Origin: Neisseria zoodegmatis
Lineage (GTDB): Bacteria > Pseudomonadota > Gammaproteobacteria > Burkholderiales > Neisseriaceae
Assembly (NCBI RefSeq): GCF_900187305.1
Contig: NZ_LT906434.1
Coordinates: 992,001 to 1,056,000, forward strand
DNA length: 64,000 nt
Reading direction: 5' to 3'
The position numbers and the translations under genes are program-made. Shown here piece after piece: positions 17,440 to 20,211 of the stretch (its first letter is position 1; the number at the start of each line of letters is the position of its first letter). The notes under the pieces were generated by a model, which searched no databases, was not told where the DNA came from, and was given only the letters and a program-made list of their open reading frames with translations.

Positions 17440-17647
17440 GATTTCTTCCTCCAACTTTTTGTATCAAAAATAATTTTTACTTCTTTTCATTATAGCTCTC
17501 AGGGCATTTTCAATAAATAAGCAGATGTTGAAGGTTTTCAGACGGCCTGTTGCTCTTGGGATGCCGAGTATATTTTTGTATTTAAATTCACATGTGTAAA
17601 CTTGATTTAACGGCCGCCTTGCAGTAATATTGCCGAACTGAAATTGA

Positions 17648-17692
17648 TTCGCCGATTTGATACAGCTTGCGGGCGTTAAACAGCTAAAGCGT
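17648..17692 (+). promoter_or_regulatory. Candidate SAM-II riboswitch aptamer upstream of metNIQ
   Basis: An H-type pseudoknot can be drawn. P1 is CGCC (17650-17653) with GGCG (17672-17675). The loop contains GATTTGA (17654-17660). P2 pairs GCTTGC (17665-17670) with GC-TA-AAGC at 17683-17690, leaving U and A unpaired as in SAM-II. The segments GATTTG, CTTGC, CGTTAAACA and GCTAAAG match, in order and spacing, the conserved blocks of the alphaproteobacterial metA SAM-II aptamer as I remember it. The genes it precedes import methionine, the expected regulon. P1 is short (4 bp). The call rests on pattern matching by eye, not on a covariance model. Confidence 0.8.
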
Positions 17693-17729
17693 AAGGTTGC
17701 AGTTCGCAGCCCTTCGTTTTGTGATTCCG

Positions 17730-17756
17730 GCCCGCTGTGTTACACATCGGGCTTTT
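17730..17756 (+). terminator. Leader terminator (expression platform) of metNIQ
   Basis: Stem GCCCG-c-TGTG / CACA-t-CGGGC with loop TTA, followed by TTTTGTTG, ends 22 bases before the metN start. Its 5' arm GCCCGC (17730-17735) is also complementary to GCGGGC (17669-17674) inside the aptamer. The two pairings exclude each other: ligand-bound aptamer frees the terminator, and unbound RNA can form the antiterminator. Confidence 0.75.
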
Positions 17757-17777
17757 GTTGTATGTGTTGGAAAATTT

Positions 17778-18515
17778 ATGATTATTTTGGACAATGTTTC
17801 CAAGCGTTATCAAAACCGTGATAAATCATGGTTTACTGCGGTAGAGCCGACTACGTTGGAAATTAAAGCAGGTGAGATCTTTGGTTTGATGGGTTATTCG
17901 GGAGCGGGGAAATCCACTCTTTTGCGCTTGATTAACTTATTAGAACGCCCGGATACGGGTAAAGTAACTGTGGGCGGAGAAGAGCTGACTGCATTGAGCG
18001 CGGCTGCTTTGCGTAAGGCGCGCCAGAATATCGGCATGGTGTTTCAACAGTTTAATTTGTTAAGCAATAGAACGGTTGCCGATAATGTGGCGTTCCCGCT
18101 TGAGATTGCCGGATGGCCGTCTGAAAAGATTAAAAAGCGTGTTGCAGAGTGTTTGGAAATTGTCGGCTTGGAAAACCGTGCGGAACATTATCCGGCACAG
18201 CTTTCAGGCGGGCAGAAGCAAAGGGTGGGCATTGCGCGTGCGCTGGCTTCCAGCCCTAAAGTCATTCTTGCCGACGAACCGACCTCTGCACTTGATCCTG
18301 CCACGACTCGAAGTGTGTTGGAATGCTTGGAAGACATCAATAAGCGTTTCAACGTAACAATTGTAATCGTAACCCATGAAATGAGCGTGATCCGTCGCTT
18401 GTGTGACCGTGCGGCACTGCTGCATCAGGGAAAAATCGTGGAAGTGGTGAACGTTGAAAATAATCAAATTCATGCGCGTTCGGAAATCGGCTGCGAGTTG
18501 GTGAGGGAGGATTGA
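17778..18515 (+). CDS. metN: Methionine ABC transporter ATP-binding protein
   Basis: ATPase subunit of the MetNIQ high-affinity methionine importer. ATG 17778 gives MIILDNVSKRYQNRDKS; the longer reading frame upstream runs through the leader terminator and has no ribosome binding site. Walker A is GYSGAGKST, the Q-loop MVFQQFNLL, the signature LSGGQKQRVGIARAL, and Walker B is VILADEPTSALD. At 245 residues the protein is short: typical MetN is about 340 with a C-terminal ACT-like regulatory domain that binds methionine. Here only a remnant (HARSEIGCELVRED) follows the ATPase, so transinhibition by methionine may be absent. metI starts two bases after the stop. Confidence 0.93.
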   Translation: MIILDNVSKRYQNRDKSWFTAVEPTTLEIKAGEIFGLMGYSGAGKSTLLRLINLLERPDTGKVTVGGEELTALSAAALRKARQNIGMVFQQFNLLSNRTVADNVAFPLEIAGWPSEKIKKRVAECLEIVGLENRAEHYPAQLSGGQKQRVGIARALASSPKVILADEPTSALDPATTRSVLECLEDINKRFNVTIVIVTHEMSVIRRLCDRAALLHQGKIVEVVNVENNQIHARSEIGCELVRED

Positions 18516-18516
18516 T

Positions 18517-19203
18517 ATGGCAGATATGACCTTCGCTCAGGCAGTGGAAAATATTAGCAGCATGCGCGGTGAAATCGTGCAGGCTCTGTGGGAAACCTTC
18601 ATTATGGTAGGGCTTTCGACCACTTTTGCCACCTTATTCGGCACATTGCTGGGTGTGTTTTTGTTTGTAACGGCCAACCGCCAGCTTCACTATAACCGTC
18701 CCGTTAATTTGGTGTGGGACAATTTGGTTAACTTGATGCGCGCCTTCCCGTTTGTGATTTTGATGATTGCCATGATTCCGGCGACGAGAGCGATTGTCGG
18801 CAGCACGATTGGCCCGGTGGCGGCTTCGTTGGTGTTGAGCGTTTCAGGTATGTTTTATTTCGCCCGTTTGGTTGAGCAAAATCTTCGTGAAGTTCCTCGT
18901 GGTGTGATTGAGGCGGCCAGCAGCATGGGTGCGACTCCGATGACGATTATCCGCAAAGTGTTGCTCAACGAAGCTCGTGCGGGCATGGTGTCGAGCATTA
19001 CCGTGTTGGCGATCGGTTTGTTGTCTTACAGTGCTGCTGCGGGCATGATTGGTGGCGGCGGTTTGGGTGATTTGGCTATCCGTTATGGCTATTATCGCTA
19101 TCAAACTGAAGTCATTATTTTTATTGTCGCCATTTTGGTGTTGTTGGTTATTTTGATTCAAAGTTTGGGCAATTTTATTTCCCGTAAATTGGATAAGCGG
19201 TAA
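18517..19203 (+). CDS. metI: Methionine ABC transporter permease
   Basis: Inner-membrane permease of MetNIQ, 228 residues with about five hydrophobic segments and the EAA coupling motif near IEAASSMGATPMTIIRKVL (residues ~130-148). The start is set by GGGAGG at 18505-18510, within the end of metN, and the genes are almost contiguous (translational coupling is likely). A mixed DUS hairpin separates it from metQ. Confidence 0.95.
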   Translation: MADMTFAQAVENISSMRGEIVQALWETFIMVGLSTTFATLFGTLLGVFLFVTANRQLHYNRPVNLVWDNLVNLMRAFPFVILMIAMIPATRAIVGSTIGPVAASLVLSVSGMFYFARLVEQNLREVPRGVIEAASSMGATPMTIIRKVLLNEARAGMVSSITVLAIGLLSYSAAAGMIGGGGLGDLAIRYGYYRYQTEVIIFIVAILVLLVILIQSLGNFISRKLDKR

Positions 19204-19240: not shown

Positions 19241-19281
19241 AATCTTACTTTTTACACATTTACCTCAAGGAGTATTTGATT

Positions 19282-20211
19282 ATGCAAGCATCTGCTTTGT
19301 TTAAAACTTTTTCTGTCGGTGCAGTAGCATTCGCATTGGCTGCCTGCGGCGGTCAAAGCCAAAAGGAAACTGCTCCCGCGGCTTCCAACGCTTCGGCCGG
19401 CGGCGCTGCTGCGGTTGAGAAAAAAGAAATCGTATTCGGTACAACGGTTGGCGACTTCGGCGATATGGTGAAAGAGCAAATCAAACCTTCACTGGAGAAA
19501 AAAGGCTATACCGTTAAGCTGATTGAGTTTACCGATTATGTACGCCCGAATCAGGCTTTGGCAGAAGGCGAGTTGGACATCAACGTATTCCAACACAAAC
19601 CTTATTTGGACGACTTCAAAAAAGAGCATAAATTAGACATTACCGAAGTATTCCAAGTGCCGACTGCTCCGCTGGGTCTCTATCCCGGTAAATTAAAATC
19701 ATTGGATGAAGTTAAAGAAGGCAGCAGCGTTTCTGCACCGAATGATCCTTCCAACTTTGCCCGTGCTTTGGTGATGATGAACGATTTAGGCTGGGTTAAG
19801 TTGAAAGACGGCGTTAATCCCTTGACTGCGTCTAAAAATGATATTGCTGAAAACCTGAAAAAAATCAAAATCGTTGAGCTGGAAGCTGCTCAACTGCCCC
19901 GCAGCCGTGCCGACGTTGATTTTGCTGTTGTGAACGGCAACTACGCTATGAGCAGCGGCATGAAGTTGACCGAAACTTTATTCCAAGAGCCGAGCTTTGC
20001 TTATGTAAACTGGGCTGCTGTGAAAACTGCCGACAAAGACAGCCAATGGGTTAAAGATGTTGCTGAGGCTTATAATTCTGATGAGTTCAAGTCTTATGCC
20101 AAACAGCGTTTTGCCGGCTACAAATACCCTGCATCATGGGGAGAGCAAGCTGCTCAAGGTGCTGCTTCAGAAGCGGCTGCTACTGCGTCTGCTGCATCTT
20201 CAGCTAAATAA
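19282..20211 (+). CDS. metQ: Methionine-binding lipoprotein MetQ (NlpA family)
   Basis: Substrate-binding component of the methionine importer, 309 residues. ATG 19282 is nine bases after AAGGAG (19267-19272); the TTG at 19276 has worse spacing. Lipobox LAAC puts the lipid Cys near residue 22. After a Ser/Ala-rich linker the NlpA fold begins with IVFGTTVGDFGDMV and includes LAEGELDINVFQH and FAVVNGNYA. The C-terminus has an Ala/Ser-rich tail (about 20 residues) that looks disordered. Transcription ends at the hairpin at 20229-20255. Confidence 0.95.
   Translation: MQASALFKTFSVGAVAFALAACGGQSQKETAPAASNASAGGAAAVEKKEIVFGTTVGDFGDMVKEQIKPSLEKKGYTVKLIEFTDYVRPNQALAEGELDINVFQHKPYLDDFKKEHKLDITEVFQVPTAPLGLYPGKLKSLDEVKEGSSVSAPNDPSNFARALVMMNDLGWVKLKDGVNPLTASKNDIAENLKKIKIVELEAAQLPRSRADVDFAVVNGNYAMSSGMKLTETLFQEPSFAYVNWAAVKTADKDSQWVKDVAEAYNSDEFKSYAKQRFAGYKYPASWGEQAAQGAASEAAATASAASSAK

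Follow-up and report, generated by a model that had tools for sequence, protein, structure and literature searches.

SAM-II riboswitches (Rfam family RF00521, SAM_alpha) are sensors of S-adenosylmethionine (SAM) found ahead of methionine genes; they fold into an H-type pseudoknot of two helices, P1 and P2, with a GAUUUG segment as the third strand, a pocket built from CUUGC and GCUAAAG, and a terminator behind. We found the sequence blocks and the possible pairings for all these features in the leader of the methionine transporter operon metNIQ within a stretch of 64,000 nucleotides (nt) from Neisseria zoodegmatis (contig NZ_LT906434.1, positions 992,001 to 1,056,000), hereafter the window. 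A first-pass annotation, made from the letters alone, had read this leader as a SAM-II-like riboswitch, and our analysis supports that reading. The element is real and conserved, a shortened form of the class in Neisseriales; very probably it acts as a riboswitch of the SAM-II class and represses metNIQ by terminating transcription, most likely when SAM is plentiful. Four computed results carry this reading: homology to betaproteobacterial SAM-II elements, covariation in P1 and in the outer part of P2 (P2a), a conserved terminator, and two mutually exclusive folds.

The annotation had described SAM-II as best known from Alphaproteobacteria. The class is present there but not confined to them: the accessible parts of two papers describe SAM-II with terminators in alpha- and betaproteobacteria (PMC2258182) and name the class for Alpha-, Beta- and Gammaproteobacteria (PMC2704228). 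For the SAM-II leader of Sinorhizobium metZ, the accessible part of the report predicts termination on SAM binding and finds the short RNA more abundant at high SAM (PMC9373788). In betaproteobacteria, Leyn et al. (2014, PMC4239095) describe a metXZ element with a pseudoknot and a terminator/antiterminator; their main text, as far as accessible, gives no ligand for it and places metNIQ outside the known methionine regulators. SAM-V, according to the consulted portion of its structural description (PMC6061858), shares the pocket, the pseudoknot core and a short P2a with the window element. It differs in controlling translation through a Shine-Dalgarno sequence in P2a and in having a P3 helix, whereas the window element carries a terminator instead and gives no match to the SAM-V Rfam model at E ≤ 10 (cmscan, 401 nt). 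Relative to RF00521, the Neisseriaceae element has four supported P1 pairs, a shorter loop L3, a two-pair P2a, a score below the family cut-off and metNIQ as its target, and the window antiterminator is made of loop L1 and the P1 3′ strand. SAM-II in betaproteobacteria is known, and control of metNIQ by SAM-II was not found in print: we recognised no description of a SAM riboswitch at Neisseria metN or metNIQ in searches of openly accessible papers.

Homology to betaproteobacterial SAM-II elements

No Rfam family reaches its own cut-off anywhere in the 64-kb window. With relaxed limits, RF00521 aligns over its whole model to positions 17641–17708 with 21.1 bits (E 0.013 in 401 nt). The gathering cut-off of 36 bits is a detection threshold and not a biological feature; the score lies under it, so that Rfam-based annotation misses the element. 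The SAM-II long-loop model gives 14.5 bits, and SAM-I/IV (RF01725) has no match at the metN leaders searched (the window and 20 Neisseriaceae loci). At E ≤ 5, RF00521 picks up 10 of these 20 loci (20.7–22.9 bits), and its cut-off misses this Neisseriaceae branch of the class at all 20. Across the order it exceeds the cut-off in 26 of 150 genomes versus 0 of 14 control genomes; only such matches were counted, because 7 of the 14 controls also match at E ≤ 1. One RF00521 match of 17.8 bits (G000:C1:1135941) was taken as chance, the site being coding sequence by eye and lacking the motif order.

We then relied on a covariance model, R2, made from 23 RF00521-found betaproteobacterial elements with all Neisseriaceae left out; 19 of them exceed the cut-off of 36 and four (L055, L056, L059, L060) score 35.2–35.9 bits. 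R2 finds the window element with 41.6 bits and an E-value of 4.2e-10 over 64 kb (rough calibration), the next best place reaching 14.7 bits. By this E-value and this gap the match is above chance, and the window element is homologous to betaproteobacterial SAM-II elements at or near the Rfam cut-off. The annotation's refuting condition, an element with neither model support nor conservation, is for the most part answered in favour of its reading; the Rfam SAM-II model itself, which stays below its cut-off here, speaks against it. The element is the sole R2 match in its own 2.55-Mb genome, and R2 matches 38 of the 46 genomes of the genus at E ≤ 0.01. A second, mixed model, R1, built from 47 sequences with Neisseriaceae among them, also matches 38 of the 46 at E ≤ 1e-5, as well as 286 of 399 genomes of the order, from 126 of 158 genera, at E ≤ 1e-4. 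Strong R1 matches occur in seven genomes from five other genera of the family, 37 genomes having been searched outside the genus. R1 also gives weak additional matches in G191, G016 and G023, and a weak match is all it gives in G014 (22.5–29.1 bits for these four genomes); others were seen in G199, G207 and G228.

Predicted pseudoknot, ligand-pocket letters and covariation

The leader lies on the + strand between promoter-like boxes (17602–17630) and the metN start at 17778, and runs in the order CGCC, GAUUUG, AUACAGCUUGC, GGGCG, UUAAACA, GCUAAAGCGU, a small hairpin and GCCCGCUGUGUUACACAUCGGGCUUUU. The aptamer, complete and shortened, occupies positions 17650–17692. The conserved blocks listed by the annotation are all in place, namely GATTTG at 17654–17659, CTTGC at 17666–17670, CGTTAAACA at 17674–17682 and GCTAAAG at 17683–17689, the last being part of the P2 3′ strand and SAM pocket, GCUAAAGCGU (17683–17692). 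P1 also stands as proposed, with CGCC (17650–17653) paired to GGCG (17672–17675). The 5′ strand of P2 spans 17662–17670 and comprises A17662 and C17663 (P2a) together with U17667–C17670, and L3 is the short A-rich loop UUAAACA (17676–17682). Of the proposed pseudoknot helix between 17665–17670 and 17683–17690, the outer pair G17665:C17690 was rejected, since position 17690 is not C in 12 of 46 other elements and in 4 of 37 Neisseriaceae. The SAM-II register fits better, with pairs C17670:G17683, G17669:C17684, U17668:A17686, U17667:A17687, C17663:G17691 and A17662:U17692 and with U17685 bulged.

Pair conservation was counted over 83 distinct elements, 37 from Neisseriaceae and 46 others, against 2000 shuffles in which relatedness was ignored. 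The counts were made on anchored positions and not on the MAFFT alignment, because MAFFT misplaces the L1 gap in Neisseria. The counting script required GATTT(G/A), CAGCTTGC and GCTAA, and those letters are therefore fixed by construction. Of the 159 loci entered into the count, 22 did not match the required motifs. Six of these are RF00521 loci (L039, L040, L048, L054, L057, L058), two are tandem loci that read AATTTGA (L182, L185) and 14 are metN loci without an element (L162-L167, L170, L171, L173-L178).

The fourth P1 pair, 17650:17675, is standard in 82 of the 83 elements (C:G 68, U:A 12, G:C 1, U:G 1), whereas the shuffle mean is 69.2 and none of the 2000 shuffles reaches 82; within Neisseriaceae it is kept in 36 of 37 (shuffle mean 28.3, again 0/2000). 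Isolated double changes occur at P1 pairs 2 and 3, and one genome (G228, L172) has ACC/GGU in place of the GCC/GGC of the other elements. A fifth P1 pair is kept in 46/46 elements from outside Neisseriaceae. At the outer P2a position, 67 of 83 elements have a standard pair, of type A:U, U:A, C:G, G:C, U:G or G:U (shuffle mean 37.6, 0/2000); outside Neisseriaceae the count is 36/46 versus 25.6, a value that no shuffle reaches. In relatives, therefore, P1 and P2a covary and the terminator described below is kept, as the annotation would have required of a real element. L3 measures 5–10 nt in 35 of the 37 Neisseriaceae elements versus at least 13 nt in 45 of the 46 others. In one Neisseria genome (G007; L028 / L160) more than 100 nt are inserted in L3, and the ends of the insertion, GUUAUAG...CUAUA, could pair into a P3-like stem.

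UUGC and GCUAAA of the pocket are retained in the window, as is GAUUUG of the third strand; the equivalents of these letters hold SAM in the close relative SAM-V, according to the accessible part of the structure paper (PMC6061858). By our own mapping onto that structure, U17685, A17686, A17687 and A17688 would correspond to the SAM-holding U47-A50, and U17656–U17658 would belong to the third strand of the P2 triplex. GAUUUG and the ligand-contact letters are conserved in our alignment A1, an invariance that is partly by construction, as the rows were picked by GATTTGA, C(T/A)TGC and GCTAA. On this comparison SAM would be the ligand.

A proposed terminator/antiterminator switch and its rival explanations

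The probable promoter, read from sequence, has a −35 box TTGATT (17602–17607) and a −10 box TAATAT (17625–17630) separated by 17 nt, and transcription is expected to start near 17637. A loose promoter pattern, TTGA-N2-N16..18-(T/G)ANNNT, lies just 5′ of the aptamer in 23 of the 37 distinct Neisseriaceae leaders, a count made without a shuffle control. No methionine-rich leader peptide was seen by eye in 17637–17777. Downstream of the aptamer, fold prediction places a linker hairpin, GGUUGCAGUUCGCAGCC, at 17695–17711, in a linker that by eye varies in sequence among species. It is followed by the intrinsic terminator recognised by the annotation at 17730–17756, GCCCGcUGUG-UUA-CACAuCGGGC plus UUUU, in which 17730–17734 and 17736–17739 pair with 17743–17746 and 17748–17752 ahead of TTTT. 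A GCCC...GGG hairpin is present in 37/37 distinct Neisseriaceae leaders, and 35 of the 37 have a hairpin of −8 kcal/mol or lower ahead of a T run.

Aptamer and terminator hairpin are complementary in sequence, so that antiterminator and terminator are mutually exclusive. In the free fold of 17637–17758, computed with pseudoknots disallowed, the antiterminator is part of the minimum free energy structure; the terminator forms when 17650–17691 is blocked. The predicted antiterminator pairs 17660–17665 and 17670–17674 (the CGGGC strand) with 17730–17740, the 5′ arm of the terminator thereby doing double duty, and 17652–17656 with 17746–17750. The pairing of GCGGGC with GCCCGC suggested by the annotation could form, but the predicted antiterminator extends beyond it. 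As isolated helices, antiterminator and terminator have energies of −11.9 and −11.7 kcal/mol. The terminator mismatch C17735/U17747 gains partners in the antiterminator for both bases (G17665 and A17655). Of 31 Neisseriaceae stems with the form GCCCG...CGGGC, 30 have no standard pair here, and the six other leaders have different stems; a non-pairing position is as expected if the arm were held by antiterminator pairing. A search word for the antiterminator arm, composed once these sequences had been viewed, matches 37/37 Neisseriaceae leaders versus 0/46 others. In a smaller set of the other leaders, complements of GCUAA were found in 17/42 (3.7 expected) and complements of the CAGCUUGC strand in 16/42 (1.4 expected), so that the aptamer is shared and the expression platform differs. 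Predicting free duplexes of the aptamer with the sequence downstream proved too permissive, with long internal loops and many z-scores near zero, and was not used as evidence.

At low SAM, the nascent leader would pair 17660–17674, helped by 17652–17656, with the terminator arms 17730–17740 and 17746–17750, no terminator would form and metNIQ would be transcribed. At high SAM, the ligand would lock the P1/P2 pseudoknot and withdraw the aptamer strands from other pairing; the hairpin 17730–17752 would then form ahead of UUUU and stop transcription about 20 nt before metN, yielding an RNA of about 120 nt. The direction of the switch is likewise a prediction of this model.

Several points weigh against such a switch. 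The folds ignore the pseudoknot and the speed of transcription. RF00521 stays below its cut-off in the window and reaches 36 bits in 0/20 of the Neisseriaceae loci scanned. The promoter scan of the window gave no + strand promoter at this leader, the boxes being below the tool's consensus threshold; the terminator scan did not list the 17730–17756 hairpin, which it probably missed owing to the mismatch and the short T run, and two of the 37 leaders (L026 and L172) have no T run that passes our check. As to the helices, the shuffle statistics disregard the relatedness of the elements, the fifth P1 pair is unsupported in Neisseriaceae (20/37 versus a shuffle mean of 20.9), inside the family the outer P2a pair shows too little variation to be informative (31/37 versus 31.0), and nowhere is a further possible P2a pair supported (27/83 versus 37.5). 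The P2 core pairs provide no covariation evidence; they are uninformative because the scripts required CAGCUUGC and GCUAA. At a ligand-contact position, 4 of the 37 Neisseriaceae elements (L025, L029, L161, L172) have GCUAAG in place of GCUAAA, a sub-variant that may reflect decay or a change of ligand. Lastly, 19 of 76 loci in the named-genome survey described below have no methionine-gene match, including all 11 from Chromobacterium and several at contig or locus ends.

These points leave room for other explanations. An aptamer with the SAM-II fold might sense another compound, such as S-adenosylhomocysteine, methionine or another compound of the SAM cycle, given that uptake rather than synthesis is now controlled. 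The shorter L3 and the GCUAAG sub-variant speak for this, but the window retains every pocket letter that we could map from the accessible part of the SAM-V paper (PMC6061858), and the same core letters stand elsewhere ahead of metX, metZ, metK and metH, where SAM is the expected signal; we regard another ligand as very unlikely. That the copy in this genome is a former riboswitch, decayed and now unregulated, would agree with the losses seen within the genus (a terminator without aptamer in G014, and five genomes with metN and no leader). The intactness of P1, pocket, P2a, terminator and antiterminator complementarity in the window makes it very unlikely. The strong sequence conservation of the core and the invariance of its pairs would also suit an operator in the DNA, bound by a regulator such as MetR, with the terminator acting as an unconditional attenuator. 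Such an operator is extremely unlikely, as the blocks lie downstream of the promoter-like boxes and the changes in P1 and P2a preserve pairing, and it would leave unexplained that the antiterminator word, composed with these sequences in view, matches all 37 Neisseriaceae leaders and none of the 46 others.

Target genes, losses and related RNAs

The genes behind the element are metNIQ, as the annotation had stated. The metN gene (17778–18515, +), which starts about 85 nt 3′ of P2a, encodes a methionine ATP-binding cassette transporter ATPase of 245 residues without a C2 domain; metI (18517–19203, +) encodes the permease and metQ (19276–20211, +) the methionine-binding lipoprotein. All three were assigned by best NCBIfam match and all three score under the curated cut-offs: TIGR02314 gives 297 bits over profile positions 1–242 of 343 (full-length cut-off 499.7), NF008049 182.6 bits (cut-off 212) and NF008285 183.9 bits (cut-off 374). 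MetN falls short because the protein ends after profile position 242. The element is a candidate regulator for metNIQ in Neisseria. We take NMB1946 to be MetQ. NMB1946 is listed among vaccine antigens and is up-regulated in blood, according to the accessible part of one report (PMC3088726).

MetN lies behind the element at 38 distinct Neisseriaceae loci; a further one (L127) is misframed, and the same leader recurs with MetN at L208, from a metagenome-assembled genome (MAG) named Eikenella. At 24 loci outside Neisseriaceae the gene is metX (11), metZ (9), metH (2), metK (1) or one for a small unknown protein (1); one or two representatives were tested per named group, and the six RF00521 loci without motif match were not part of this survey. 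A second survey scanned named genomes for the exact 24-base core and sorted 76 loci by the best match among seven reference proteins, giving MetN at 38, MetZ at 10 (with just 33–41% identity for L216 and L252), MetX at 6, all from SAR86, MetQ at 3 (two Ignatzschineria and one MAG called Lysobacteraceae) and no match at 19. MetN targets occur in Neisseria, Bergeriella, Eikenella, Conchiformibius, Stenoxybacter, Aquitalea, Vogesella, Paludibacterium, Crenobacter and Craterilacuibacter. All genes that we identified behind this element family are methionine or SAM genes.

SAM-II-type elements also occur as tandem pairs (L050 1504-1751, L156 1501-1727, L182 1523-1759, L185 1519-1755). Behind tandem elements stands a gene for a protein of about 100–110 residues starting M(F/Y)DC (L204 3847-4396, L185 1802-2134, L182 1806-2141, and L050); the second tandem element of L204 was read by eye, and the L204 copy of the protein has no Pfam match. 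This uncharacterised protein would be under double SAM control.

Eight genomes of the genus have no strong R1 match. In five of them (G009, G012, G026, G034, G187) metN follows closely behind another open frame, by eye, and has no leader. In G014 (L162 1200-1500) the promoter-like boxes and the terminator are kept and the aptamer is gone; this natural deletion should attenuate metN with no control over it. G011 (83% complete) and G188 gave no MetN at E ≤ 1e-50.

The meningococcal MetN lacks the C2 domain through which methionine inhibits E. coli MetN, according to the accessible part of a study of that transporter (PMC8416018). Behind the element, MetN has 245–246 residues in 36/36 complete cases, two more being truncated where the retrieved sequence ends, and three long homologues (337–338 residues, L173-L175) have no element visible in the 300 nt upstream. 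The converse link fails, as in eight genomes (L162-L167, L170, L171) MetN is short and no intact element is present, and the association could be explained by shared descent of one MetN lineage. For both reasons we offer only as a speculation, and a rather doubtful one, that feedback on methionine import moved from protein to RNA in Neisseriales: MetN would have shed the C2 domain by which it sensed methionine, and a streamlined SAM-II riboswitch, with a terminator hairpin that is for the most part antisense to the aptamer itself, would have taken over, sensing SAM and not methionine; the GCUAAG sub-lineage may already sense something else. In the genus g99, G222 (L128 / L168) has a short MetN with the element, and the other member examined, G213, has a 337-residue MetN and no element seen; transfer of the whole operon into G222 is possible.

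The annotation knew of no such element in Neisseria, which agrees with our literature coverage at metN and does not hold for SAM riboswitches in the genus as a whole. A SAM riboswitch is reported at Neisseria metK in the accessible parts of two papers (PMC5399841, PMC7237195), and a third gives a non-significant SAM riboswitch prediction at NGFG_00245 (PMC4176332). With cmscan, SAM-I/IV (RF01725) exceeds its cut-off at 3 of 6 Neisseria metK loci, and no SAM riboswitch is listed at the other three, which include the window genome's own. SAM-I/IV is a relative of SAM-I, distinct from SAM-I itself. It exceeds its cut-off in 23 of the 46 genus genomes, the window genome not among them. The metK riboswitch shares the genus and the presumed ligand with the window element but has an unrelated fold and a different gene, and it was rejected as a member of the metN-leader family. 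G018, of which the metK locus was scanned, G002 and G013 each carry two SAM-I/IV riboswitches.

The metXZ element has the same bacterial group, architecture and position as the loci ahead of metX and metZ studied here, which carry the SAM-II core; the text of Leyn et al. (2014), its sequence figure aside, suggests that it may be this SAM-II-type RNA. RF02424 (Bp2_287, "Burkholderia sRNA") likewise has the SAM-II core at the same place in 12/12 fetched loci (L179-L190; 19 matches in all), on the opposite strand, and one of the 12 exceeds the RF02424 cut-off (L179, where the SAM-II match is partial). The accessible part of its source paper placed RF02424 beside metX/metZ (PMC3521395). RF02424 probably describes a SAM-II leader on the wrong strand. 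Our results suggest that SAM_alpha, metXZ and Bp2_287 are three names for one RNA family in betaproteobacteria. The window has an RF02424 match of its own, at 17650–17734 on the minus strand.
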